Shown here: piece after piece, positions 520-11,641 of the stretch | Layout: every line of letters starts with the position of its first letter | How positions within the stretch are numbered: position 1 is the stretch's first letter | Source: Pseudomonadales bacterium | GTDB taxonomy: Bacteria > Pseudomonadota > Gammaproteobacteria > Pseudomonadales > DT-91 | Direction: 5' to 3' | DNA length: 14,888 nt | NCBI GenBank assembly: GCA_013215025.1 | Contig: JABSRR010000033.1 | Coordinates: 1-14,888 of the forward strand | The notes under the pieces: generated by a model | Databases searched by the model: none | The model's input: only the letters and a program-made list of their open reading frames with translations | What the model was told of the DNA's origin: nothing | Program-made: the position numbers and the translations under genes

Positions 520-1365
520 TTAGGCTACCTTTACCTTGTTAGATTTTTTGGCTTTCTTTTGTTTAGCCTGCTCAAAATTCTCAACTTTTTTTTGCTTCTC
601 ATATAAGAACTGCAATACAGCGGCACGATAATGGTTGTATTGCACATCATCAGCGAGTGCCAAACGGTCTCGTGGTCGCTCTAAGTCGATTGCCAAAATC
701 TCGCCGATAGTCGCTGCTGGTCCATTTGTCATCATGACAATCCGATCCGACAACAACACGGCCTCATCCACATCATGGGTAATCATGATGACGGTATTAT
801 TTAAATCACTTTGAATTTCCATTAATGAATCTTGTAAATGCGCCCGCGTAAGCGCATCCAGTGCACCAAAGGGCTCATCCATCAACAACACTTCTGGCTC
901 CATAGCTAGGGCACGCGCAATACCAACGCGCTGTTTCATGCCGCCAGAAATCTCATCCGGGCGCTTGTGCATCGCATGTTCCATATGCACAAGTTTAAGA
1001 TTGTGCTCAATCCAATCTTTCATTTCGGCCTTGGACTTTTGCCCTTTAAATACTGTCTTAACCGCAAGCTCAACATTTTCATAGGCGGTTAACCATGGCA
1101 GTAAAGAATGGTTTTGAAATACCACCGCACGCTCAGGCCCTGGCTCTAGCACTTCTTTACCGTGCAAAATAACCCCACCTTTGGTGGCCTGATAGAGGCC
1201 TGCAACCATATTTAACACGGTAGATTTGCCGCAGCCTGAATGACCAATCAAAGAAACAAACTCACCCTGCTGAATATCCAGATCAACCGACTGCACCGCA
1301 CAAAATGGACCGGTCGGGGTAGGAAACTCAATTGCCACATCACTTAATTCTAAAAATTTATTCAT
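520..1365 (-). CDS. nrtD: Nitrate/nitrite ABC importer, ATP-binding subunit (NrtC/NrtD, NasD type)
   Basis: A 281-residue ABC ATPase that powers the importer with NrtA and NrtB. Visible motifs, in order: Walker A GHSGCGKST (41-49), Q-loop Gln84 (VVFQNHSLLPW), signature ISGGMKQR (139-146), Walker B VLLMDEP (159-165), D-loop GALD (167-170) and switch His197 (MITHDVDEA). The NHSLLPWLTAYENV stretch is typical of the nitrate/sulfonate/taurine importer class. It ends in a Lys-rich tail and lacks the extra NrtA-like domain of cyanobacterial NrtC, so it is of the short NrtD/NasD form. The start has a GAGGA site 8 bases upstream. It lies 32 bases after nrtB in the same operon. Nitrate specificity rests on the operon and its nitrogen-type leader; the ATPase alone could not be told from a cyanate, sulfonate or taurine one. 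Confidence 0.9.
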   Translation of the reverse strand: MNKFLELSDVAIEFPTPTGPFCAVQSVDLDIQQGEFVSLIGHSGCGKSTVLNMVAGLYQATKGGVILHGKEVLEPGPERAVVFQNHSLLPWLTAYENVELAVKTVFKGQKSKAEMKDWIEHNLKLVHMEHAMHKRPDEISGGMKQRVGIARALAMEPEVLLMDEPFGALDALTRAHLQDSLMEIQSDLNNTVIMITHDVDEAVLLSDRIVMMTNGPAATIGEILAIDLERPRDRLALADDVQYNHYRAAVLQFLYEKQKKVENFEQAKQKKAKKSNKVKVA

Positions 1366-1397: not shown

Positions 1398-2396
1398 TTA
1401 ACGCACAGAGCTATTTTTATCCCACGACACCTTGCGCTGCAGCAGCATCATGATGCGGTCGAGAATAAAGCCAATAAAACCAATGACCAAAACAGCAAAC
1501 ATGATGCGACCTAGAGACGCCGAGCTGCCGTTTTGAAATTCATCCCAAACAAATTTTCCAAGGCCTGGATTTTGTGCCAGCATTTCTGCAGCAATTAATA
1601 CCATCCATGCGATGCCTAGTGACAAGCGTAAGCCCGTAAAGATCATCGGAATCGAAGATGGCAAAACAATTTTGCGCACATGTGTAAGCCAGCTTAAACG
1701 CAACACCTGACTGACGTTTTGTAAATCTTTCGATACGCCCGATACACCCACGGCAGTATTAATCATGGTCGGCCATAGCGAGCAAAGCGTCACCGTAATC
1801 ATCGAATTAATAAAAGACTTAGCCACTAGCGGGTCATCAGACACATATAAGGCTGACACCACCATAGTCACTAGAGGTAGCCATGCCAGCGGCGATACCG
1901 GTTTGAATATTTGAATCACCGGATTGGCCGCACTGTATAAACCTTCACTTAAACCGATCGCTATACCAACTGGAATAGCAATCAATGACGCCAGTACAAA
2001 ACCTGCTAACACTGTCACTAAAGAGGTGAATATTTGATCAATAAATGTGGGCGCGCCTGTATAGGGACGAATGCGCACTTGATAATCTGGATTTTTCTCT
2101 AATTTTTTAGCATTCCTGGCTTCTTGGCGCTGATAAAACTTCTCTTCTTTAATGCGCTCTTCTTTGTGCTCAAGCCACAAATTCTGACCTTGCTCATACA
2201 CTGCCGCAGGGCCTGGAAACTTACCTAACGAGGTGTCTATTTTTGATGCACCGATCGACCAAAAAAATAAAAACACCAATATACCTAGCAGAGGCAAACC
2301 TATTTGCCGAAAGATAGTATTGATTTGTGCTATCGGGTCTTTTCCCATTAGCAATAATTTATAAGGTTCTATCACATTCATGATTGCATTTGACAT
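1398..2396 (-). CDS. nrtB: Nitrate/nitrite ABC importer, inner-membrane permease (NrtB)
   Basis: A 332-residue integral membrane permease. One N-terminal membrane helix (about residues 32-50) is followed by a charged cytoplasmic or connecting stretch (about 65-115, rich in Glu, Lys and Arg) ending in the NrtB-typical YTGAPTFIDQIFTSL. The BPD_transp_1 core follows, with helices near 125-148, 165-187, 195-215, 255-275 and 299-318. The EAA loop that docks on the ATPase is visible as AAEMLAQNPGLG (about 270-281). No strong ribosome site is seen before the ATG at 2396 (GTGAGATACTACT), so translation may be modest. It is separated from nrtA by 151 bases holding small hairpins, and followed 32 bases later by the ATPase. 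The family also includes cyanate and bicarbonate permeases; nitrate or nitrite is preferred here because of the regulatory leader. Confidence 0.9.
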   Translation of the reverse strand: MSNAIMNVIEPYKLLLMGKDPIAQINTIFRQIGLPLLGILVFLFFWSIGASKIDTSLGKFPGPAAVYEQGQNLWLEHKEERIKEEKFYQRQEARNAKKLEKNPDYQVRIRPYTGAPTFIDQIFTSLVTVLAGFVLASLIAIPVGIAIGLSEGLYSAANPVIQIFKPVSPLAWLPLVTMVVSALYVSDDPLVAKSFINSMITVTLCSLWPTMINTAVGVSGVSKDLQNVSQVLRLSWLTHVRKIVLPSSIPMIFTGLRLSLGIAWMVLIAAEMLAQNPGLGKFVWDEFQNGSSASLGRIMFAVLVIGFIGFILDRIMMLLQRKVSWDKNSSVR

Positions 2397-2547: not shown

Positions 2548-3915
2548 TTACAGCTTTTCGCCTTGCTTTAAGCCAATTGGGAACTTAGCAAGGTAAGCAT
2601 TTGGCTTAGTACCGTCATAAGGAATACCGTCAATGAAGGACTCTTCGACTGGTTTAAAGCCACTCTCGCTGGCGAAGTCAGGAAAATCTTTTGCCTGCAC
2701 CTTACCTTCTGCGATCAATTCTTTGGCAGCGATAGCATAAATGTCAGGGCGATAAACTTTCTTGGCAATGTCCATATACCAGCTGTCTGGCTTAGCTTCA
2801 GAGATTTGGCCCCAGCGACGCATTTGCGTTAGGTACCAGATGGCATCTGAGTAGTATGGATAGGTTGCGTTATAGCGGAAAAATACGTTGAAATCAGGCA
2901 CTTCACGCTTATCACCTTTTTCATACTCAAATGTACCGGTCATCGAGTTAGCAATAACGTCTTTATCTGCACCAACATAATTAGGCTTAGACAAGATTTT
3001 CACCGCTTCCATACGATTGGCATTGTTATTCTCATCCAGCCATTGCGCGGCGCGAATCATTGCTTTAACTACTCGGATATGAGTATTTGGATATTTATCC
3101 GCCCAAGCCTTGGATACACCAAACACTTTTTCTGGGTTGTTTTTCCAAATTTCATAGTCAGTAATAACCGGCACACCAATACCTTTAAACACTGCCTGCT
3201 GGTTCCATGGCTCACCCACACAGTAGCCATAAATAGTACCCGCTTCTAAGGTGGCTGGCATTTGCGGCGGCGGCGTCACGCTCAATAAAGCATCGGCTTG
3301 CAGCTGTCCCTTGATGTCGCCCTTATGTGGCGCATAAAAGCCTGGGTGAATACCGCCTGCAGCTAGCCAATAACGCAGCTCATAGTTGTGCGTGGATACC
3401 GGGAATACCATACCCATATTGAAGGGCTTACCCTCAGATTTGTATTTTTCAACTATTGGCTTCAGCGCATCGGCTTTAATAGGATGCACTGGCTTACCGT
3501 CGGCCTGTTTAGGAATGTTCGGCTTCATTTGCTGCCAAATATCATTTGAAACGGTAATGCCGTTACCATTTAAGTCCATGCTGAAAGCGGTGATGATATG
3601 CGCCTGCGTGCCAAAACCGATCGTAGCGCCGAGCGGCTGACCCGCCAACATATGTGCACCGTCGAGCTGACCATCAATGACGCCGTCCAACAATACCTTC
3701 CAGTTGGCCTGCGCTTCTAACGTTACATACAGATCTTCGTCTTCAAAATAGCCATTCTCGTAGGCAATCGCTAAAGGCGCCATATCGGTTAGCTTGATAA
3801 AGCCAAACTTCAAATCTTCTTTTTCAGGCTCGCCAACGGCGGCCAACACTGACTGCGTCGTCATTGTCATTACCGCAGCGGCCGCAGCTAACTTTATTGG
3901 TTGTAACCACTTCAT
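2548..3915 (-). CDS. nrtA: Periplasmic nitrate/nitrite-binding protein of ABC importer (NrtA/NasF)
   Basis: A 455-residue substrate-binding protein of the NrtA/CmpA family, at the usual family length. A Sec signal peptide ([18 protein letters not shown]..., cleaving near SVLA-AVG) has no lipobox Cys, so it should be soluble in the periplasm. Family hallmarks follow: [78 protein letters not shown] and [12 protein letters not shown]. The ATG at 3915 has an AGAGGG site 7 bases upstream. It is the first gene of the nrt operon, read from a sigma-54-like promoter and through a terminator-bearing leader that ends 32 bases before the start. CmpA (bicarbonate) and cyanate binders are close relatives, but the nitrogen-type control argues for nitrate or nitrite. 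Confidence 0.92.
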
Positions 3916-3947: not shown

Positions 3948-3996
3948 AAAAAAAACGCTTAATGCTGCCGCAACATTAACTGCAGAGCATTAAGCG
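3948..3996 (-). terminator. Attenuator terminator in the nrtA leader
   Basis: In minus-strand RNA an 11-bp perfect stem, CGCUUAAUGCU/AGCAUUAAGCG, closes a 19-base loop region and is followed at once by eight U. It lies between the promoter and nrtA, ending 32 bases before the ATG, so it would stop transcription before the operon unless relieved. Its 5' arm shares bases with the 3' arm of the P2 hairpin at 3991-4006, so the two folds exclude each other. Confidence 0.85.
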
Positions 3997-4031
3997 CCTT
4001 TGCTTATATTTATTTTCATCGCCATTGATGA
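3991..4031 (-). promoter_or_regulatory. ANTAR-type antiterminator RNA (P1 + P2) in the nrtA leader
   Basis: Two short hairpins with six-base loops stand in tandem in the leader RNA. P1 (4016-4031) is UCAUC[AAUGGC]GAUGA and P2 (3991-4006) is UAAGC[AAAGGC]GCUUA, joined by the 9-base linker AAAUAAAUA. Both loops have A at position 1 and G at position 4, the defining pattern of RNA bound by ANTAR-domain antiterminators (NasR of Klebsiella, NasT of Azotobacter/Pseudomonas). The P2 3' arm is part of the 5' arm of the following terminator. Binding of a nitrate/nitrite-responsive NasT or NasR would hold P2, block the terminator and let nrtA be transcribed. The regulator gene itself is not in this window. 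Confidence 0.85.
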
Positions 4032-4050: not shown

Positions 4051-4066
4051 AGCTTTAATCATGCCA
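4051..4066 (-). promoter_or_regulatory. Sigma-54 (-24/-12) promoter for nrtA
   Basis: TGGCATGATTAAAGCT fits the sigma-54 pattern TGGCAC-N5-TTGCW: the -24 GG and -12 GC are exactly 12 bases apart and five of six -24 bases match. The predicted start is near 4040, about 9 bases before the P1 hairpin, so the antiterminator RNA would be the first thing made. An NtrC-like site lies about 108 bp upstream. Confidence 0.7.
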
Positions 4067-4140
4067 ACTTTAATTAGTTATTATAAATCATATACTTATA
4101 TAAATTTAATGGTGATAATTTACCTCTAAAAATACCTTAT

Positions 4141-4157: not shown

Positions 4158-4177
4158 CTTTAAAATTCTGCTTGCAC

Positions 4178-4204
4178 AAAAAAAACCAGCTTTCGCTGGT
4201 TTTT
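4178..4204 (-). terminator. Intrinsic terminator after the globin gene
   Basis: On the minus strand AAAACCAGC-GAAA-GCTGGTTTT forms a strong stem with a GNRA-type GAAA loop and a U tract. It begins 23 bases after the globin stop and closes the cytochrome operon, separating it from the nrtA promoter. The flanking A/T runs could make it work in both directions. Confidence 0.9.
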
Positions 4205-4227: not shown

Positions 4228-4659
4228 CTACGCTGGCTGCTCCGCATTCGCTGCAGCTATCATGGTAGATGATAAGACGCCGTAGGCTGTCAGCCATGCG
4301 GCCTTCACCTCATCGGTAAAAGCATCGCCTAAACCCTGCCCCAAGGTTTTGATCAATGCAGCACCAACTGTTGCATAGTGCTCATCTTTAACCCCATAGC
4401 CCACATGGCGCAGTGCCAGCTTTTCTACCACCGGCACCAATTCATCCAACTTATCCAATAAATTTACTGCCGCAGTGATCATTTGCATCAGCTTTTTACC
4501 CTGCTCAGTGAGGTCTCCTTTAAACAATGGCTTGAGCGCGGGATCAGCCTCAAACAAGTTACTGTAGAATAAGGCCGCCGCATCATCTGCAATTGGCTCC
4601 ACTTTCGACCATGAATCACGGCAGAGCGCAATTTTTTCTGCGTTTAACGTATCTGACAT
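4228..4659 (-). CDS. Single-domain bacterial haemoglobin (Vitreoscilla-globin-like)
   Basis: A 143-residue cytoplasmic globin without a reductase domain or signal peptide. Aligned by eye to Vitreoscilla haemoglobin it keeps Tyr32 (B10, in FYSNLFEADPALKPLF), Gln53 (E7, in TEQGKKLM) and the proximal His85 (F8, in ALRHVGYGV). Tyr-B10/Gln-E7 is the distal pair usual in O2-binding, NO-dioxygenating globins. It is the last gene of the cytochrome operon, which suggests NO removal during nitrogen-oxide metabolism (inference). Start choice is open. ATG 4659 has GGGAGA 8 bases upstream and gives the normal family length. An in-frame ATG at 4701 has a perfect GGAGG 5 bases upstream and would add 14 residues (MLKKLMSLIKGESD). 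A third ATG at 4713 has no ribosome site. Confidence 0.88.
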   Translation of the reverse strand: MSDTLNAEKIALCRDSWSKVEPIADDAAALFYSNLFEADPALKPLFKGDLTEQGKKLMQMITAAVNLLDKLDELVPVVEKLALRHVGYGVKDEHYATVGAALIKTLGQGLGDAFTDEVKAAWLTAYGVLSSTMIAAANAEQPA

Positions 4660-4722
4660 ATCAGATTCTCCCTTTATTAATGACATCAATTTTTTAAGCA
4701 TTTCAGCCTCCATGACTGATCA

Positions 4723-5073
4723 TCACTGATCCACTTGACTCAGCATATATTTTACCGCCTCGGCCACTTCAGCATCGCTTAGAAACGTTTTACCGCCCTT
4801 GGCTGGCATCAGCTCGTAGCCCTCGATCGCATGCGCAGTCAAAACCGCCAAACCTTGCGGCGCGCGCTTTGACCACATCTTCTTATTGCCAATAATGGGT
4901 GCACCATTGATGCCTTGACTGTGACAAACGACGCAGTGCTGCTTAACAATACTCGCTCCCAACGCAAGCTCAGCGCTAACGCTATTTGCTGAGGGGTTCT
5001 CAACAGCATCAACACAGCTCAATAGATTCACAGCCGCAAACACCAAACTCATGGCTATCAAACAAAACTTCAT
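4723..5073 (-). CDS. Monohaem c-type cytochrome, c5-like, exported
   Basis: A 116-residue class I cytochrome c. It has an N-terminal signal (MKFCLIAMSLVFAAVNLLSC); the LLSC ending could be a weak lipobox, making it a lipoprotein. One haem site CVVCH (Cys47, Cys50, His51) is followed by the c5-like QGINGAPIIGNKKMW, and the axial Met is probably Met89 in GYELMPAKGG. It ends in a helix typical of c5/c8 proteins. Its likely role is to shuttle electrons in the periplasm between the multihaem proteins of this operon or the respiratory chain. The ATG at 5073 is preferred over an upstream TTG (5085) because the signal begins there, although no clear ribosome site is seen. It is 24 bases from the DUF3365 gene. 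Confidence 0.85.
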   Translation of the reverse strand: MKFCLIAMSLVFAAVNLLSCVDAVENPSANSVSAELALGASIVKQHCVVCHSQGINGAPIIGNKKMWSKRAPQGLAVLTAHAIEGYELMPAKGGKTFLSDAEVAEAVKYMLSQVDQ

Positions 5074-5097
5074 CACAACACCCAAGCAATCAATCGC

Positions 5098-5670
5098 TTA
5101 AAGCGGCACGCGAATAACAACGCCACCCATGACTTCACCAATCTGAAAATCAGTTTTCGGCGAGTCTTTATGGTCGTTATGGCATGTGGTGCAGGCTGGC
5201 GACACAGCCACATCAGGATACACTGCAGTAAAGTAGGTCACGTCGCCCAACGCTTCTTCACCGTAAAAATTTTGCCCAGGGTTATCTGCAATAAATTGCA
5301 GACCTTCTTTTTCCATCGGTGTTTTCGGCGCATTTTGCTTATTTATTGGCCAAAGCGACTGCAGCGAGTAGGTAAAGTCATCCGTAGTTTCTGCAACTCT
5401 CTCAGCGCCAGCCCTAAACATCTGCGCCGGCAGTAAAGTGCCATTATCAATATCTTCCCAATGTTCATCAGGCTTAACCGCACCCGAGCCATTCGGACCC
5501 AAGCGCTGCACAACCAGCTTGGTATAATTAGCGCGATCCGCATTCATCACTGCAAACAACGAGTCGGTATATAACTTAGGCTCTATACCCTTCATTACAA
5601 CCTCATCTTTACATGCACTTAAGCCGACAGCCAAGGCTGCCATTGTGGTTACCGATAGTAGTTTTTTCAT
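5098..5670 (-). CDS. DUF3365 (Tll0287-like) c-type haem lipoprotein
   Basis: A 190-residue lipoprotein: signal MKKLLSVTTMAALAVGLSAC with lipobox LSAC, Cys20 being the lipidated residue. The body matches the DUF3365/Tll0287-like fold, which has PAS-like topology and binds one c-type haem; the haem motif is CTTCH (Cys160, Cys163, His164) in SPACTTCHNDH near the C-terminus. The end reads IGEVMGGVVIRVPL, typical of the family. Family members are electron carriers or haem-based sensors of unknown ligand. The ATG at 5670 is chosen over the one at 5691 because AGGAG lies 6 bases before it. It sits 28 bases after the 11-haem cytochrome gene, so it probably acts as a periplasmic partner or NO/redox-binding accessory; this is inference. 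Confidence 0.82.
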   Translation of the reverse strand: MKKLLSVTTMAALAVGLSACKDEVVMKGIEPKLYTDSLFAVMNADRANYTKLVVQRLGPNGSGAVKPDEHWEDIDNGTLLPAQMFRAGAERVAETTDDFTYSLQSLWPINKQNAPKTPMEKEGLQFIADNPGQNFYGEEALGDVTYFTAVYPDVAVSPACTTCHNDHKDSPKTDFQIGEVMGGVVIRVPL

Positions 5671-5698
5671 AGGTTTCTCCTTGGTTAACATATCAGTG

Positions 5699-6985
5699 TT
5701 ATCGTGAATCTCTTTCTAACGCCCAATCTATTGATGGAACATGCTTACTAGGCTGGCCATTAAAATTGTTATTAATTAAAAGCTGGTCTGCTAATGCATC
5801 AATCGAAAAACCTAAACCATGACAGTCAAGGCAGACCTCTCGAATCATCTTCTCATTTGGTCTGAGATTGGCATTTTGATTATGCTCGACCATGCTGAAT
5901 GCCTGCCCGTCAATCATGATTTGCTTATGCGGCATATGACAGGTGGCGCAACTAAACTCAATATCCGATTGCTTAGCATGCGGTGAGGCGATAAAGCTTT
6001 TCGAATGCTCATCGTCATGACAACTCAAACAGCTTTCAGTTGCAGACATCTGCTGATACTGATGCGGCGCATGACAGGCACTGCACTCTTGTTGCGCCGC
6101 AGTATGAAACGCCATCGACCTACTCATATCAGTATTCATTGCCGGCAAATCTTGCGCCAAGCGCATGCCATGCTTCGAGGCTAGAAACCCTTCCGTTTCT
6201 TGACTGTGACAGGTAGCACACTGACTCGATGCCGGCTTCGCTAACCACTCATCTGCATCTTGTAAATGACAGCTTGCACATGACAAGCCAGCTTCTGCAT
6301 GAATATCTTCAGCAAACACTGCCGCCACAGCAATTTTTGCCTCAGAATCTAAATTTACTGGCTGCTGCGCACTAACATCAGAAAAATCTGCATTTTTAGA
6401 GTGATGATAATAACTGGGCATGCTAGACGAGAGCACTACTTCATCTAACACCTTAAGCCATGGCTCTTGCGCATGTTGCAATAAGAAATTTTCGTATAAA
6501 GCTCGATTATCGTGATAGTTATGGCAGCCTGCATCAGCACAACTATCAAACGCTAAATCTTGATGGCTCTCACGCTCTTCAGCAATATCCTGATGGCAGT
6601 GATAGCAATAGTCATCTGGCAAACTTACGCCCATCGCTCTTGTCTGCTCATGCTGATGCTCGGTATGACAACTCACACAATAGCGCGCATCCACGACCTC
6701 TAGACGGTCGGCGTTACGCGGATCGGTAAACTTTTTTTTCGGATGCGAATCGTGTGCCGCATCTAACTCTGTTTGATGACACGCAACGCATGCATTTTGC
6801 AGTATTTCCTCACCGCCAAAAGGCTCGGTATGACATGCCGTACAAGCCATCTCAATTTGATAGTGGCCATAACTGGCTTCGCCGATGAGAAAATCTGTTT
6901 TATGCGCTTGAATAAACATCTGATTAACAAAGTAGCCTGCTAAAGCCAGGCATATCAGCCCCCAAAGTATCCATATTTTTTTCAC
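5699..6985 (-). CDS. Periplasmic multihaem (11-haem) c-type cytochrome
   Basis: A 428-residue protein with an uncleaved-looking N-terminal membrane anchor (about residues 4-24) and eleven haem-attachment motifs in two groups. Group 1: C48-H52, C66-H70, C103-H107, C127-H131 and an atypical CX4CH (CADAGCH, 149-155). Group 2: C236-H240, C256-H260, C301-H305, C319-H323, C346-H350 and C385-H389. About 80 haem-free residues separate the groups. CX4CH is known from tetrahaem cytochromes c3. Group 2, with SKHG, CATCHMPH and a final CLDCHG, loosely recalls the octahaem hydroxylamine-oxidoreductase/nitrite-reductase superfamily, but there is no CXXCK as in NrfA and I cannot assign it. The GTG start at 6985 has an AGGTGAG site overlapping the stop of the preceding gene, suggesting coupled translation. 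It is likely to receive electrons from the membrane oxidoreductase encoded upstream and pass them to nitrite or another N-oxide (inference). Confidence 0.85.
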   Translation of the reverse strand: MKKIWILWGLICLALAGYFVNQMFIQAHKTDFLIGEASYGHYQIEMACTACHTEPFGGEEILQNACVACHQTELDAAHDSHPKKKFTDPRNADRLEVVDARYCVSCHTEHQHEQTRAMGVSLPDDYCYHCHQDIAEERESHQDLAFDSCADAGCHNYHDNRALYENFLLQHAQEPWLKVLDEVVLSSSMPSYYHHSKNADFSDVSAQQPVNLDSEAKIAVAAVFAEDIHAEAGLSCASCHLQDADEWLAKPASSQCATCHSQETEGFLASKHGMRLAQDLPAMNTDMSRSMAFHTAAQQECSACHAPHQYQQMSATESCLSCHDDEHSKSFIASPHAKQSDIEFSCATCHMPHKQIMIDGQAFSMVEHNQNANLRPNEKMIREVCLDCHGLGFSIDALADQLLINNNFNGQPSKHVPSIDWALERDSR

Positions 6986-6992
6986 AACTCAC

Positions 6993-8975
6993 CTAAAAGT
7001 AATACACACTGAGGATATGAAAGATCAACAACACCGGCAGTGGCCAAGCCACTAGCACATGCAGCCATGTACTTCGCCGCCGAAACAGTCGCGCATTTCC
7101 CGCAGCAAACCAATGCGAGCCAGCGACCAACACACCGGCCAACGAACCCATAAACACTACCGCGATAAAGTTCAGCATAAGCCAGCGGTTTAAGTTTTCA
7201 CCAAGATGAAAGCCGGTATGCAAGCCAAGCGTTACAACACACAGCACCCCAAGTAAAATATGCAGCACTCGCCATTTGGAAAAATGCCCTAACGATATGA
7301 CTGCAATACGCTTTCGCAATGACATCAACATGCCAAGCACGGTAAGCCCTAACAAGCTGAAACCTGTTACTTGTTTAACAAAATGATCATTCCAGATCCG
7401 TTCGTACCAGCTAATTTGCAGCACTGAATCTGCGGTTTTCGCCTCAGGCATTAACAGATAAACTGTCGCCAGCAATGCGGCTATAGCACTCAACACCAGC
7501 TGCGGCCGCCAAGCCTGCTCTTTTTCTCGCTTCGCACCCACCATCTCTGTTAACAACGGTAAGCAAGAACCACAACCGGTTCCGGCCATGGTCGACGCCG
7601 ACAGCTCAGCAACCGTTGTACCCGCTTGCGCGCAGCGCTTCGCAATCTCGCCTTTTGTCACCGCATGACACTGGCACAGCACTGCACTATCAGGCCAGGC
7701 TTGCACCGACTGCTGCCCCTGACGCCATAGGGAGCCAGTCCACTTAAAACGCAATAGCTGCCAAGGCATAATGCGATCACCTTGCTGAAAGCTATGTTGT
7801 GTTTTGGAAAAATCCGGCCACGGCCCTAAACTTACCGCACCAATCAATCTATGCTTATGGAGTACCAGCTTGCGATATTCAGACTGGTCAGCATTACGCC
7901 AAATCCATTCGCGGTAGCGGCTTCGGCCGGCGTCATAATTAATCTCGCCAAACGAAGCCACATCAGTACCCACCACTTTTAAGCGCGCCACTAGAGAACT
8001 GCCGGCATAGCGCGCAGGGTGCTGCGATAGATGCTGCACCGCCACCCTAGCCTGCTCAAAACCGGGGCTGACCAGACCGTAAGTCAGACCGTTATACTCG
8101 CAGCACTCGCCTACGGCATAGATATCAGGATTCGAGGTTTGCAGAAACTGGTTAACTTGCACACCTTTGCCATAGTGAAGCCCAGAGCGCTTGGCAATAT
8201 CAATATTAGGCGTTATGCCCGTACAAAACAGCACCATATCAGCCATGATCTCGCGGCCGGACCGGGTTTTTACCGCCCGCACACGCGCATCACCCACAAG
8301 CTCTCTAACGCCCTCATTGACTAACACATCTATTCCTAGAGCTTGAATACTTTGCTGTAATTTATTAGCGGCGAAGGCGTCCAACTGACGATTCATTAAA
8401 AATTCGCCCTGCTGAATAATCGTCACCTTGTTGCCATATTTATGCAGTCCTTTGGCAGCCTCTAAACCTAACAGGCCGCCACCAACCACCACTGTCGAAC
8501 GCACACTCATTAGCTTGCTGTACAAACGCTCTGCGTCGATTAAGTTGCGAAAGGTGAATACATTGTCTAGCGCATTACCCGGTATCGTTGGTACAAAGGC
8601 ACGCGAGCCAGTGGCGATAAAGCATTTATCATAGTGATATCGCTGCCCCTCAGTATCTACAAGCTGTTTTGCATCGGCATCAATATGATGCACACGGGCA
8701 ACTACTGAAAACAGCTGCTGCGAAGACTCAGGCGCCAGAGGCTGAAGATAAATCGCCTCACGCCGCACATCGCCAGCGAGCATTGCCGACAATCGAACGC
8801 GATCATAGGGCGCATAAGGCTCATCGCCAATGAGGGTAATGGCAATCTGACTGTGCTGCTGAAGCAGCTCTGCAGCTACACGCATCCCCACTGGGCCGTT
8901 ACCAATAATAACCACCCTTAGAGCTGACACTGAGGCATCACAGTTTTTGCTGTATTGATCTATTGCTGCGCACAT
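6993..8975 (-). CDS. NirB/NasC-like FAD-NAD(P)H oxidoreductase + BFD [2Fe-2S] + di-haem membrane cytochrome b fusion
   Basis: A 660-residue fusion protein. Residues about 20-310 are a pyridine nucleotide-disulfide oxidoreductase like the NirB/NasC N-terminus: FAD GxGxxG (GNGPVG, 25-30), NAD(P)H GGGLLG (165-170) and FAD-binding SNPDIYAVGE (about 282-290). A BFD-like [2Fe-2S] site follows (Cys434, Cys436, Cys468, Cys471). The sirohaem/4Fe-4S catalytic half of NirB is absent. Instead there are five membrane helices (about 493-508, 534-553, 569-589, 599-620, 636-658). Helices 3 and 5 each carry two His spaced 14 apart (His572/His586 and His639/His653), the ferric-reductase pattern that stacks two b haems across the bilayer. 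Arg/Lys-rich loops put the FAD module in the cytoplasm. It would move electrons from NAD(P)H to the periplasm. The ATG at 8975 (AGGG 3 bases upstream) is preferred; an in-frame TTG at 8996 abuts the leader terminator's U tract. Confidence 0.85.
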   Translation of the reverse strand: MCAAIDQYSKNCDASVSALRVVIIGNGPVGMRVAAELLQQHSQIAITLIGDEPYAPYDRVRLSAMLAGDVRREAIYLQPLAPESSQQLFSVVARVHHIDADAKQLVDTEGQRYHYDKCFIATGSRAFVPTIPGNALDNVFTFRNLIDAERLYSKLMSVRSTVVVGGGLLGLEAAKGLHKYGNKVTIIQQGEFLMNRQLDAFAANKLQQSIQALGIDVLVNEGVRELVGDARVRAVKTRSGREIMADMVLFCTGITPNIDIAKRSGLHYGKGVQVNQFLQTSNPDIYAVGECCEYNGLTYGLVSPGFEQARVAVQHLSQHPARYAGSSLVARLKVVGTDVASFGEINYDAGRSRYREWIWRNADQSEYRKLVLHKHRLIGAVSLGPWPDFSKTQHSFQQGDRIMPWQLLRFKWTGSLWRQGQQSVQAWPDSAVLCQCHAVTKGEIAKRCAQAGTTVAELSASTMAGTGCGSCLPLLTEMVGAKREKEQAWRPQLVLSAIAALLATVYLLMPEAKTADSVLQISWYERIWNDHFVKQVTGFSLLGLTVLGMLMSLRKRIAVISLGHFSKWRVLHILLGVLCVVTLGLHTGFHLGENLNRWLMLNFIAVVFMGSLAGVLVAGSHWFAAGNARLFRRRSTWLHVLVAWPLPVLLIFHILSVYYF

Positions 8976-8994
8976 AGGCCCTGTAATTTTTGGC

Positions 8995-9040
8995 AAAAAA
9001 AAACGCTAACGCTCTGGCTGTTAAACCAAAGCTTTAGCGT
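8995..9040 (-). terminator. Second (proximal) attenuator terminator of the cytochrome operon leader
   Basis: A 15-position stem, ACGCUAAAGCUUUGG against CCAGAGCGUUAGCGU, has one A-G mismatch and one G-U pair, an 8-base loop and a U9 tract ending 20 bases before the ATG at 8975. Its 5' arm contains the 3' arm of the P2-like hairpin at 9034-9049, so it can be disrupted by antitermination. It is the second terminator in the same leader. Confidence 0.82.
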
Positions 9041-9094
9041 CTTTACTAAACTCTCACTCATCACGAGCACTGAAGCTGCCACCTTTGACAACTT
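9034..9094 (-). promoter_or_regulatory. Second ANTAR-type antiterminator RNA in the cytochrome operon leader
   Basis: P1 (9073-9094) is an 8-bp stem AAGUUGUC/GGCAGCUU with loop AAAGGU. P2 (9034-9049) is a 5-bp stem UUAGU/GCUAA with loop AAAGAC. Both loops have A1 and G4, the ANTAR-target signature, and P2 overlaps the following terminator. The linker is 23 bases, longer than the 9 bases of the other two elements here, and contains a small CUC/GAG hairpin that could bring P1 and P2 closer. Two hexaloop hairpins just before a terminator are unlikely by chance, but the long linker lowers certainty. Confidence 0.65.
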
Positions 9095-9106
9095 GAGCAT
9101 GGAAGC

Positions 9107-9161
9107 AAAAAAAAGCGCCTAATGCCTCAACACAAATTTTTATGTGTGAGTCATTAAGCGC
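9107..9161 (-). terminator. First (distal) attenuator terminator of the cytochrome operon leader
   Basis: A long stem in minus-strand RNA pairs GCGCUUAAUG with CAUUAGGCGC (one G-U), continues as CUCACACA with UGUGUUGAG (one bulge), and is followed by U8. The flanking text AGCAAAGGCGCTTAATG is identical over 17 bases to that at the nrtA attenuator. It lies about 130 bases before the first gene and overlaps the P2 hairpin of the first ANTAR element. Confidence 0.85.
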
Positions 9162-9196
9162 CTTTGCTGTATTTTATCACCACCTTCATCGGCAGC
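9157..9196 (-). promoter_or_regulatory. First ANTAR-type antiterminator RNA in the cytochrome operon leader
   Basis: P1 (9179-9196) is GCUGCC[GAUGAA]GGUGGU, with several G-U pairs. P2 (9157-9168) is AGC[AAAGGC]GCU, the same loop as in the nrtA leader. The loops are 19 bases apart, exactly as in the nrtA element. P2 fits the A1/G4 rule; the P1 loop keeps G4 but has G instead of A at position 1, so it is a variant or a weaker site. The P2 3' arm is shared with the terminator stem at 9107-9161. The predicted transcription start (about 9199) lies only a few bases before P1. Confidence 0.75.
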
Positions 9197-9209: not shown

Positions 9210-9225
9210 AGCTATTTCTGTGCCA
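9210..9225 (-). promoter_or_regulatory. Sigma-54 (-24/-12) promoter for the cytochrome operon
   Basis: TGGCACAGAAATAGCT has a complete -24 TGGCAC and a -12 AGCT with the required 12-base GG-to-GC spacing. The predicted start is near 9199, immediately before the first ANTAR hairpin. It is the better of the two sigma-54 matches in the window and has the same layout as that of nrtA. Confidence 0.78.
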
Positions 9226-9301
9226 TATTAAATAAGGTTAATTTTTTCAACAATTTATGATCCATTCCTTAAAGCATAGAATGGGTTATATGGCGACATT
9301 C

Positions 9302-9931: not shown

Positions 9932-10669
9932 TTAATCGGAAAGGTAATACTCGACCGTTGACACGACGCGCACTTTTTTGATCTGCGGATTATTTTTATC
10001 ACGCGCAGTAATACTGAACTGCCCCTGCGACGCGCGCTTAATCTTACCCAGCTGGCTATCTGAATCTTTCGCAAATTTTTCAGCCACGTCGCGCGCATTG
10101 CGAGTTGCACGCTCAATCATTTGCGGCTTGATGGTATTTAAATGGGTATAAATATACTCGGTTTGCGCATTATAGTTGCCTGCATTAAACACAATGCCTT
10201 GCTTACCGAGCTGCGACAGTTTTGCTTGCAGCTGACGCGCCAGCTGCACTTGCTGTGAATAGACGGTAACCGTTTGACTGGCGGCATAACGAAACTTTTG
10301 CGCTTCATTGCCCCATTGCTGCGCCGAACGGTCGTTAATCGACGGCGCCGTGACAGTAATCTCATTGTCGGCCAGACCATTCGCTGTTAAAAACTGCTGT
10401 ACCAGCTGCGCCTGACGCTCTAATTCCACATAGAGTGCCTGCAGGTCGTTATCCGCGGCAACAAACTGAATCGGCCAAAGCACAATATCCGCCTGCACTT
10501 CCTGCTCAGCCAAACCTTTCACACTAACGCTACGCTCAAATTGCTTTACCGATATTGCGGCATTTGACAGCTGGTAACCCAACACGGCAAGCCCAATCAA
10601 TATCGATAGTCCCAAAAGTGCGGCCGCTTTTATGCTTATAAGGTGAGTCACATTCGCTGTATTGCTCAT
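9932..10669 (-). CDS. SIMPL-domain (DUF541) protein, membrane-anchored
   Basis: A 245-residue protein with an N-terminal membrane helix (about residues 14-35, ALLGLSILIGLAVLGYQL) and a periplasmic SIMPL/DUF541 domain. The domain begins at FERSVSVKGLAEQEVQADIVLWPI, the family's typical V-G-E-V-AD-A-W start, and ends with strands RVVSTVEYYLSD. The central stretch YTHLNTIKPQMIERATRNARDVAEKFAKD is the conserved helix. Family roles are poorly known (oxidative-stress or cell-envelope links have been reported). The ATG at 10669 has AGGA 8 bases upstream. A second SIMPL protein is encoded two genes upstream in the same cluster. Confidence 0.85.
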   Translation of the reverse strand: MSNTANVTHLISIKAAALLGLSILIGLAVLGYQLSNAAISVKQFERSVSVKGLAEQEVQADIVLWPIQFVAADNDLQALYVELERQAQLVQQFLTANGLADNEITVTAPSINDRSAQQWGNEAQKFRYAASQTVTVYSQQVQLARQLQAKLSQLGKQGIVFNAGNYNAQTEYIYTHLNTIKPQMIERATRNARDVAEKFAKDSDSQLGKIKRASQGQFSITARDKNNPQIKKVRVVSTVEYYLSD

Positions 10670-10692
10670 ACTATCGTCCTTGCAAAGCGCGA

Positions 10693-10926
10693 TCAGTCTA
10701 ATCGCTTATATTCAATCGCACTGTCTGCCAGCTTCATCTGCCAAACAAACTGCTGATAACGGTCAAAGCAGGCTAGCTCATAACCGAGCATATTTTGATT
10801 AAGCACTGCTTTCACCACCGCCACATCACCCACCTTAGGTGCACGCCGATTTTTAGCATCTTGCACAAAGCGGTAGTCTCTTTGCACCGCAGTAATCATA
10901 ATCTTTTGATTAACCGTTAGCGTCAA
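10693..10926 (-). CDS. Small conserved-looking hypothetical protein between two SIMPL genes
   Basis: I do not recognise this 77-residue protein. It has no signal peptide, no membrane segment and no metal motif. The composition is that of a compact beta-rich domain (PKVGDVAVVKAVLNQNMLGYELACF...QQFVWQM). The start is uncertain: the TTG at 10926 lies two bases after the stop of the upstream SIMPL gene and would rely on coupled translation; an ATG at 10899 gives 68 residues but has no ribosome site. The tight packing, with 23 bases to the next SIMPL gene, argues it is real and part of the same operon. Confidence 0.65.
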   Translation of the reverse strand: MTLTVNQKIMITAVQRDYRFVQDAKNRRAPKVGDVAVVKAVLNQNMLGYELACFDRYQQFVWQMKLADSAIEYKRLD

Positions 10927-10928
10927 GA

Positions 10929-11609
10929 CTACTGATCCGCTATCGCTACCCGATAAACAAGCTCGGCACGAATTGTCACAGGGTCTAGGGTAAGCTGCTC
11001 CATCGCATTATCTTCGGCCATAGCAAACTGCTTAACACTGCGGGTATGTGCATAGCCATAATTATTGATATTCTCACTGACCTCGAGCACGCCACCTAAC
11101 TTGACGTTCAAATGGCCGGCAAGTGCAGCAGCCTTGGCCTGCGCCACTTTTAACGCGTTTACCAAGGCCAGCTTTTCGGTTTCGGCAATCTTAGAGGAGC
11201 TGCTCGCCACATTAACATTGATATCACCAATACCGCTAAGTATCTTACTGGTCGCATCATAAAGAGCAAGCTGCTGAGTTTTCAGGCTCAAACTTTGGCG
11301 ACAATAATTCTTACCCTTGGAGACATAATTGCTGAAAGTTGAACGACGATACTCATGCTGCTCGTCATACAAGGTCTGCAACGCCTGAATCACAGACTGT
11401 GCCTGACGATCGATTTTTGCTTTACAATCGTCAGCATCACGATCCTCAGCGTTCAGGCGAATTTGCCAATTCAAGGTATCTACCGGCGCTTTCTCGACCG
11501 CTTTGCCGCTGACCAAAATACTTTTATCGTCAGCCAGTAAAGTCTGCGACCACGATAGGCAGCTAGCGAAAAGCAAACTGACACTCAGCTTGTGCAAGCA
11601 TAGCTTCAT
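10929..11609 (-). CDS. SIMPL-domain (DUF541) protein, exported
   Basis: A 226-residue periplasmic protein: signal peptide MKLCLHKLSVSLLFASCLSW, cleaving near LLAD, then a SIMPL domain starting SILVSGKAVEKAPVDTLNWQIRL. The helix EKLALVNALKVAQAKAAALAGHL is the family's typical central segment, and it closes with VTIRAELVYRV. Cys in DADDCKAKI and KNYCRQSL could form a disulfide in the periplasm. The ATG at 11609 is preferred over an ATG 27 bases earlier because AGAGGA sits 6 bases before it and the signal peptide begins there. It is followed at once by the small unknown gene and the membrane-anchored SIMPL gene. Confidence 0.85.
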   Translation of the reverse strand: MKLCLHKLSVSLLFASCLSWSQTLLADDKSILVSGKAVEKAPVDTLNWQIRLNAEDRDADDCKAKIDRQAQSVIQALQTLYDEQHEYRRSTFSNYVSKGKNYCRQSLSLKTQQLALYDATSKILSGIGDINVNVASSSSKIAETEKLALVNALKVAQAKAAALAGHLNVKLGGVLEVSENINNYGYAHTRSVKQFAMAEDNAMEQLTLDPVTIRAELVYRVAIADQ

Positions 11610-11641
11610 GGATATTCCTCTAATCTTTGCGCCCAACAGGC

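Follow-up and report, generated by a model that had tools for sequence, protein, structure and literature searches.

A NirB-headed membrane fusion and an 11-haem cytochrome in a conserved operon linked to nitrate use in a Pseudomonadales bacterium and its relatives

We analyzed the 14,888-base contig JABSRR010000033.1 of a Pseudomonadales bacterium (assembly GCA_013215025.1; genome of 2.78 Mb, 96% complete), which is referred to below as the window in its entirety and as contig C33. The window contains an operon of five minus-strand genes at 8996-4228, encoding in this order a NirB-type flavoprotein fused to a membrane domain, an 11-haem cytochrome, a Tll0287-like haem lipoprotein (hereafter Tll), a small cytochrome c and a globin. 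The reading that we favor, tentatively and at slightly less than an even chance, is that the operon is an accessory of nitrate assimilation under nitrogen starvation, which would export electrons of NAD(P)H and handle nitric oxide (NO) or nitrite. The link of the operon to nitrate use is held with much higher confidence than this whole model, and the operon probably works beside a siroheme nitrite reductase and not instead of it. The features of the operon are as follows.

9210..9226, minus strand: sigma-54-type -24/-12 element, ATGGCAC...AGCT, upstream of the operon (10/13 scored positions, with GG and GC required)
9106..9168, minus strand: leader hairpin 1 with T-run, containing a 16-mer (9152-9167) also present in the nrtA leader
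8999..9044, minus strand: leader hairpin 2 with T-run, terminator-like, directly before the fusion gene (z -3.42)
6993..8996, minus strand: fusion of a NirB N-terminal-type NAD(P)H/FAD and BFD [2Fe-2S] head with a five-helix membrane domain
5699..6985, minus strand: membrane-anchored 11-haem c-type cytochrome
5098..5691, minus strand: Tll0287-like haem lipoprotein (PF11845, DUF3365, haem-Cache)
4723..5085, minus strand: small monohaem class I-like cytochrome c with a lipobox-like Cys (PF13442, PF00034)
4228..4713, minus strand: single-domain globin (PF00042)
about 4173..4203, minus strand: stem-loop ACCAGC-GAAA-GCTGGT with T-run at the operon end (read by eye)

An original prediction, made from the window alone, had described five genes with these domains in one operon and a transmembrane electron-transfer anatomy; the genes and domains were confirmed, and the single operon and the anatomy were supported. 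For the fusion gene, the TTG start given at 8996 overlaps the T-run of a leader hairpin, and ATG 8975 is the likelier start; the likely starts of the Tll, small cytochrome and globin genes are ATG 5670, ATG 5073 and ATG 4659. When calculated from likely starts with Shine-Dalgarno-like sequence read by eye, the gaps between the genes are about 7, 28, 24 and 63 bases, so that the predicted range of 7-28 bases held for three gaps and failed for the fourth. The predicted terminator was present behind the globin gene as a stem-loop with T-run, which was not listed by the pattern scan.

Downstream of the operon on the same strand lies an nrt operon, whose leader the original prediction had matched to that of the five genes.

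4051..4067, minus strand: sigma-54-type element upstream of nrtA (score 10/13)
3950..4003, minus strand: nrtA leader hairpin, containing the same 16-mer (3988-4003)
2548..3915, minus strand: NrtA-type nitrate-binding protein (PF13379)
1398..2396, minus strand: NrtB-type permease (TIGR01183, below its cut-off)
520..1365, minus strand: NrtD-type ATPase (TIGR01184, above cut-off)

The leader match was borne out by genome-wide searches. The window holds two copies of AAAGGCGCTTAATG, against a chance mean of 0.01, and in the 2.78-Mb genome GCAAAGGCGCTTAATG occurred without mismatch only in the leaders of the operon and of nrtA; three further places carried it with two mismatches and none with fewer, while the reversed control pattern gave two matches with up to two mismatches in the whole genome. 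A chance origin of the shared leader was rejected on the window chance mean and the genome-wide uniqueness. Both copies of GCAAAGGCGCTTAATG are located inside strong hairpins followed by a T-run (z -2.64 and -4.81), and an Rfam scan of the window gave no match at the gathering score. Additionally, sigma-54-like GG-N10-GC sites with a score of 10/13 precede the five-gene operon, nrtA and the nirB gene on contig C75 of the same genome. A candidate for the predicted nitrate-type promoter was thus present at both operons of the window, but from the window alone it was only suggestive, because about 7% of 410-base windows score equally. The region upstream of nirB (L007 3949-4200, contig C75) has the sigma-54-type site without the shared leader sequence.

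To describe the operon in other bacteria, one genome per species was scanned by tblastn (E 1e-3 or better), which yielded 387 confirmed loci with a relative of the 11-haem gene; all locus counts refer to the best 80 of these, with gene families called by BLAST at E 1e-5. The order fusion, 11-haem, Tll was found in 79 of the 80 loci, and the contig of the remaining locus starts inside the 11-haem gene. Judged by their titles, the loci are mostly from Gammaproteobacteria, among them Cellvibrionaceae, Porticoccus, Spongiibacter, Alcanivorax, Marinobacter and Ectothiorhodospiraceae; two loci are from Nitrospirota, two from Poribacteria and one from Verrucomicrobiota. Relatives of the small cytochrome were found in 49 loci, in one of these apart on the other strand. 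Once open reading frames on the opposite strand, taken as antisense shadows, had been omitted, the only other families in at least 10 of the 80 loci were a truncated globin, its reductase, NrtA, NrtB, NrtD, an ANTAR regulator (16 loci) and an alginate-export-type porin.

Of the 70 fusion genes that were scored, 45 had a site of the sigma-54 type (score of at least 10), the other 10 of the 80 loci having been excluded for lack of a long fusion reading frame or of 300 bases upstream; the background rate was 7.0% in 4,000 random windows of 410 bases and 2.9% in base shuffles. The nrt genes were near the operon, that is, NrtA at 45% identity or more or NrtD at 60% or more inside the fetched stretch, in only 19 of the 80 loci, many of whose stretches end at contig ends; under this definition, the weaker transporter matches of L088, L089 and L094 do not count. 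The neighborhood survey called for with the original prediction therefore gave a divided answer: nrt genes were seldom adjacent, whereas 39 of 51 operons without nrt in the locus had their own sigma-54-type site, compared with 6 of 19 operons with nrt. In twelve of these 19 cases, a gene for a porin, an ANTAR regulator or a globin precedes the operon at a distance of 300 bases or less, and a site was found in two of the twelve and in four of the other seven; the scarcity of sites behind such genes fits co-transcription. Nitrogen control of the operon is likely on this evidence, and the promoter type suggests that NtrC would act on it, possibly together with NasT.

The link to nitrate genes was also evident at the genome level. 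Of 194 genomes sampled from the order to which the window genome belongs, 22 were carriers (11-haem gene at E below 1e-50), with the weak cytochrome matches in G008, G025, G111 and G150 (E 4e-4 to 9e-8) scored as non-carriers. NrtA was found in 18/22 carriers and 54/172 other genomes (odds ratio 9.8, p 7e-6); here and in the globin statistics below, genomes were treated as independent and relatedness was ignored. This co-occurrence and the promoter sites of the operons themselves spoke for the proposed tie of the operon to nitrate genes and for its nitrogen control. A nitrate-reductase match of at least 67% identity was present in 13 of the 22 carriers; seven others had nitrate-reductase-like matches at 38-41% and G129 one at 34%, which may be other molybdopterin enzymes, and no match was found in carrier G016 (81% complete).

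The globin was frequent as a companion, as had been predicted, but its family varied. Single-domain globin (PF00042) was present in 40 of the 80 loci and the unrelated truncated globin (PF01152) in 28; no locus had both, compared with 14 expected if the two were independent (hypergeometric 2e-12). A Fer2/FAD/NAD reductase accompanied the truncated globin in 25 of 28 loci and the single-domain globin in none of 40. In 27 of its 28 loci, the truncated globin gene follows Tll at a distance of at most 1.1 kb; in L073 it lies 5.8 kb upstream, and the single-domain globin gene lies upstream of the fusion in L070 and L092. On a quick tree of the 11-haem protein, in which 28 of 76 inner branches are open, the globin exchange took at least seven changes. 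Because the exchange was repeated, a haem-globin reaction seems to belong to the job of the operon. The usual globin reaction in such a setting is removal of NO. The globin of the window consists of the globin domain only; against the Hmp profile it scored 86 bits (cut-off 432) over positions 2-136 of 399. Two Neptuniibacter loci encode a double-length truncated globin (L052 12290-13096 and L065 2841-3653, 268 and 270 residues), and a domain scan, applied to the L052 protein only, found two PF01152 stretches in it.

The head of the fusion protein comprises PF07992 and PF00070 (FAD/NADH), PF18267 Rubredoxin_C and PF04324 BFD [2Fe-2S], and a C-terminal membrane domain follows. It resembles NirB (TIGR02374) in the FAD/NADH and BFD parts; the difference is that the fusion has a membrane domain where NirB has its siroheme/[4Fe-4S] catalytic half. 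In particular, the match to TIGR02374 covers only positions 1-472 of 794 and stays below the cut-off (381 versus 578), which indicates that the siroheme half is absent, and a domain scan of the protein found no NIR_SIR domain (PF01077). Cysteines 441, 443, 475 and 478 are conserved at 93% or more in 73 aligned rows, and histidines 579, 593, 646 and 660 are invariant in 24 rows and conserved at 93% or more in the 73. The membrane domain is predicted to form five long helices, with a predicted local distance difference test (pLDDT) value of 91.5 for the helical model, and may bind two haem b. A structural search with it placed helical bundles at the top, and a PDB sequence search gave 0 matches. 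Protein database entry P0121, which is the same protein and not an independent copy, has 660 residues. A plasmid search with the fusion matched 3,469 records, and among the matches listed none covered 80% of it.

The 11-haem protein contains ten CXXCH motifs and one CX4CH motif, every one ending in His. The motif histidines are present in all 200 rows of an alignment of 79 loci, the window protein and 120 listed proteins, some of them duplicates; a smaller alignment of 29 sequences contained the window protein and 28 of the 120. Eleven histidines outside the motifs are conserved at 97-100% in the 200 rows, the next by conservation being 415 (90%) and 129 (81%). Eleven conserved spare histidines fit eleven bis-His haems and, together with the absence of CXXCK, suggest that the protein is an electron carrier and not a catalyst, with none of its 11 haems open for catalysis. 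An active-site haem motif of the NrfA type (CXXCK) was absent from the window protein, while the E. coli NrfA reference has CWSCK at 122. We take Y216 and H264 of E. coli NrfA to be its catalytic residues, of which the residue identity was checked. In a weak alignment, no Tyr equivalent to Y216 was found after the aligned haem, and a His near the H264 position occurs in 88 of the 200 relatives and not in the window protein. Membership in NrfA was weakened by these three points. The C-terminal half resembles octahaem nitrite reductase, HAO and NrfA in sequence and in predicted fold, both weakly; the N-terminal half is c3-like with five haems, and its predicted structure is poor. The best NCBIfam matches are decahaem conduit-type families, all below cut-off for TIGR03508 (DmsE/MtrA-type decahaem; cut-off 192.2), against which the window protein scored 39.1 bits and three relatives 44.7-54.4 bits.

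The Tll lipoprotein matches PF11845 with 71.3 bits (cut-off 24.1) and has a lipobox Cys at 27 and a CXXCH motif (CTTCH) at 167-171. Its only cysteines are that of the lipobox and the two of the motif, and its relatives have no other conserved Cys; thus, the axial Cys of the Tll0287 and P. putida type is missing. A PDB sequence search with the protein gave 0 matches. It may be the member of the chain that reacts with NO or nitrite. A Burkholderiales operon encodes a Tll protein without the lipobox Cys (L088 3841-4473). An Idiomarina DUF3365 protein is named, without further context, in a table of PMC9230427.

Taken together, these parts suggest a path for the electrons. The cytoplasmic NirB-type head would oxidize NAD(P)H through FAD and [2Fe-2S], and the fused membrane domain, with its two putative haem b, would conduct the electrons through the inner membrane. 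The anchored 11-haem cytochrome would receive them, and from it they may flow to the haem-Cache lipoprotein and on to the small cytochrome c where present. Their use would be the reduction of nitrogen oxides, NO first and nitrite second, that escape to the periplasm during nitrate assimilation, while the cytoplasmic globin would remove NO inside the cell. Reduction of nitrite, NO or hydroxylamine in the periplasm, as originally predicted, is possible on this scheme. In its strongest form, which we regard as doubtful, the reading makes the operon a categorically new, NAD(P)H-driven periplasmic nitrogen-oxide reductase system of nitrate assimilation, in which a NirB head without siroheme gained a membrane haem b domain, the 11-haem protein came from the octahaem nitrite reductase/HAO line, Tll is the NO- or nitrite-reactive end and an interchangeable globin removes NO inside.

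Several results weigh against a role of the operon in handling NO or nitrite beside nitrate assimilation. Neither globin was found in 12 of the 80 loci, two of them at contig ends, in a search that other globin types would escape. Hmp exceeded its cut-off in 5/22 carriers and 48/172 other genomes, neither rarer nor commoner, and therefore no trade-off with this known NO enzyme was seen; the window genome had no Hmp match at 1e-60. Passages of the preprint PMC12889525 report that the P. putida protein, a stand-alone haem-Cache protein with the axial Cys, binds NO weakly, releases it fast and behaves in a redox-like manner, and that a signaling relative lacking the Cys binds NO tightly. According to the same passages, the Cys-to-Ala variant of the P. 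putida protein also loses NO quickly, and the missing axial Cys alone therefore predicts little about NO binding by Tll. Finally, the enrichment of NirB in the order sample was modest (at 1e-100, 19/22 carriers versus 106/172 others, Fisher p 0.031). Two of the three carriers without such a match encode part of a NirB at the edge of a contig (G001 and G021, the latter apparently the same genome as G088 of the 50-genome check described below), and p is 0.0013 when both are included.

The original prediction had placed the operon in the position of the assimilatory nitrite reductase NirBD, a reading suggested by the NirB-type head without its siroheme half and by the adjoining nrt genes. A complete nirBD in the same genome, combined with the lack of a nitrogen phenotype on deletion of the operon, had been named as the finding that would speak against it. 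The first of these two points holds, as contig C75 encodes a full NirB (845 residues, NIR_SIR over cut-off), a NirD over cut-off and, beside them, a NasA nitrate reductase cut by the contig end. Furthermore, among 50 carrier genomes checked out of the 80 loci, all 50 had a candidate siroheme nitrite reductase: 46 had a NirB match reaching the siroheme part, two of them with internal stops (G064 and G087), and two had NirB fragments at contig edges. The remaining two were a Limisphaerales carrier with a NirA-family protein over cut-off on the contig of the operon and a Poribacteria carrier with a ferredoxin-nitrite-reductase-like protein just under its cut-off (543.7 of 594 bits). One carrier of the order sample, G129, seemed to favor replacement, as it has no NirB match at 1e-100. 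However, G129 also lacks NrtA at the threshold used, and in its operon (L117 8402-11674) the membrane haem b-type domain is kept, while a GPP34/GOLPH3-type domain (PF05719, E 1.8e-33) takes the place of the flavin head in the fusion; the 11-haem gene and a Tll-like gene follow. A two-domain siroheme protein of this genome is NirA-like and far below cut-off. The input domain of the module therefore appears to be exchangeable. Replacement of NirBD was rejected on the NirB and NirD of the window genome and the 50-genome check, and we regard it as hardly credible.

The 11-haem cytochrome could itself reduce nitrite or hydroxylamine to ammonia in the periplasm and so recover leaked nitrite for assimilation, in addition to NirB or NirA. 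The weak likeness of its C-terminal half to octahaem nitrite reductase is of this kind, and the missing CXXCK and the full set of spare histidines point the other way; we consider this unlikely. We consider it just as unlikely that the operon is a general electron outlet, switched on in nitrogen starvation, through which surplus NAD(P)H would drain to periplasmic cytochrome c and an oxidase or to iron and other extracellular acceptors. A multihaem protein in which all haems are bis-His is typical of electron conduits. The histidine pattern of the 11-haem protein would fit that type, and its best NCBIfam matches are conduit-type families as well. Moreover, an 11-haem protein was proposed to transfer electrons to electrodes or iron in Tenderiales and Gallionella, as passages of PMC5371394, PMC10734462 and PMC13264449 describe. 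Nevertheless, the recurring neighbors of the operon are nitrate genes and a porin, not more multihaem cytochromes, and the single-domain globin was exchanged for another globin in 28 loci and not simply lost. Less likely again is that the NirB-type head serves mainly as the reductase of the globin, with the membrane and cytochrome arm as a redox outlet or second acceptor. The separate ferredoxin-type NAD(P)H reductase that comes with the truncated globin and never with the single-domain globin would agree with this, and Flp is proposed to be such a reductase for Bjgb. In contrast, the 12 loci without a detected globin keep the fusion, the cytochrome and Tll, and a route across the membrane is indicated by the four conserved histidines and by the multihaem partner.

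We compared the operon with known systems. Handling of nitrogen oxides beside nitrate assimilation is already known; a literature search of open-licence PMC papers found no description of the five-gene set, and this architecture was not among the descriptions found there. One of the closest was the narK-bjgb-flp-nasC operon of Bradyrhizobium, for which passages of PMC4724949 describe a nitrate-assimilation operon with a Vgb/Hmp-type single-domain globin and an NAD(P)H reductase, NasS-NasT control, and protection against NO by Bjgb and Flp. As named in those passages, it lacks genes for a membrane haem b fusion, a multihaem cytochrome and a haem-Cache protein, and its reductase is separate. Whereas the 11-haem protein shares its C-terminal half, weakly, with octahaem nitrite reductase, HAO and NrfA, it differs from them in the absence of CXXCK, the unconserved NrfA residues, the five-haem c3-like N-terminal half and the membrane anchor. 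The assimilatory octahaem nitrite reductase of Nitrospira is likewise a multihaem cytochrome c tied to nitrogen assimilation, but according to passages of PMC12342949 it is mostly encoded with a Rieske/cytochrome b complex and in a quarter of cases with NapC, while the donor here looks like NAD(P)H. The Tll protein resembles Tll0287 and haem-Cache (sCache_heme) proteins, as outlined in parts of PMC12889525, in its PF11845 domain with a single CXXCH; it differs in lacking the axial Cys and in always standing beside the 11-haem cytochrome in these loci, and a term search of the text of that preprint found neither 'operon' nor 'genomic neighborhood'. UetJ of Tenderiales and Gallionella is similar by description, with 11 (or 12) haem motifs and assignment to the cytochrome c3 family, but it is described within a porin/trihaem cytochrome cluster (passages of PMC10734462), and the recurring neighbors of our operon differ from those named for the Uet complex in these passages.

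The remaining features of the window were a porin and a pair of similar genes.

2-484, cut by the contig end, minus strand: Alginate-export-family (PF13372) outer-membrane porin after nrtABD
9932-11636, minus strand: two adjacent, similar-looking open reading frames of 245 and 235 residues

Relatives of the porin were found in 15 of the 80 loci, and it may be a nitrate-related porin. The two reading frames may encode SIMPL/DUF541-type periplasmic proteins. In the Limisphaerales locus L094, the operon is separated from a nitrate-reductase-like gene by the gene of a protein phosphatase/kinase fusion (13995-15761).

Nitrate assimilation is usually drawn as a cytoplasmic pathway of two enzymes. 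If NO or nitrite is handled outside the inner membrane by this operon, the pathway would gain a periplasmic redox arm. The NirB head would then have been re-used for transmembrane electron transfer, and two unrelated globin families would fill one slot of the operon. The question of why globins accompany nitrate assimilation thereby becomes testable in culturable strains.

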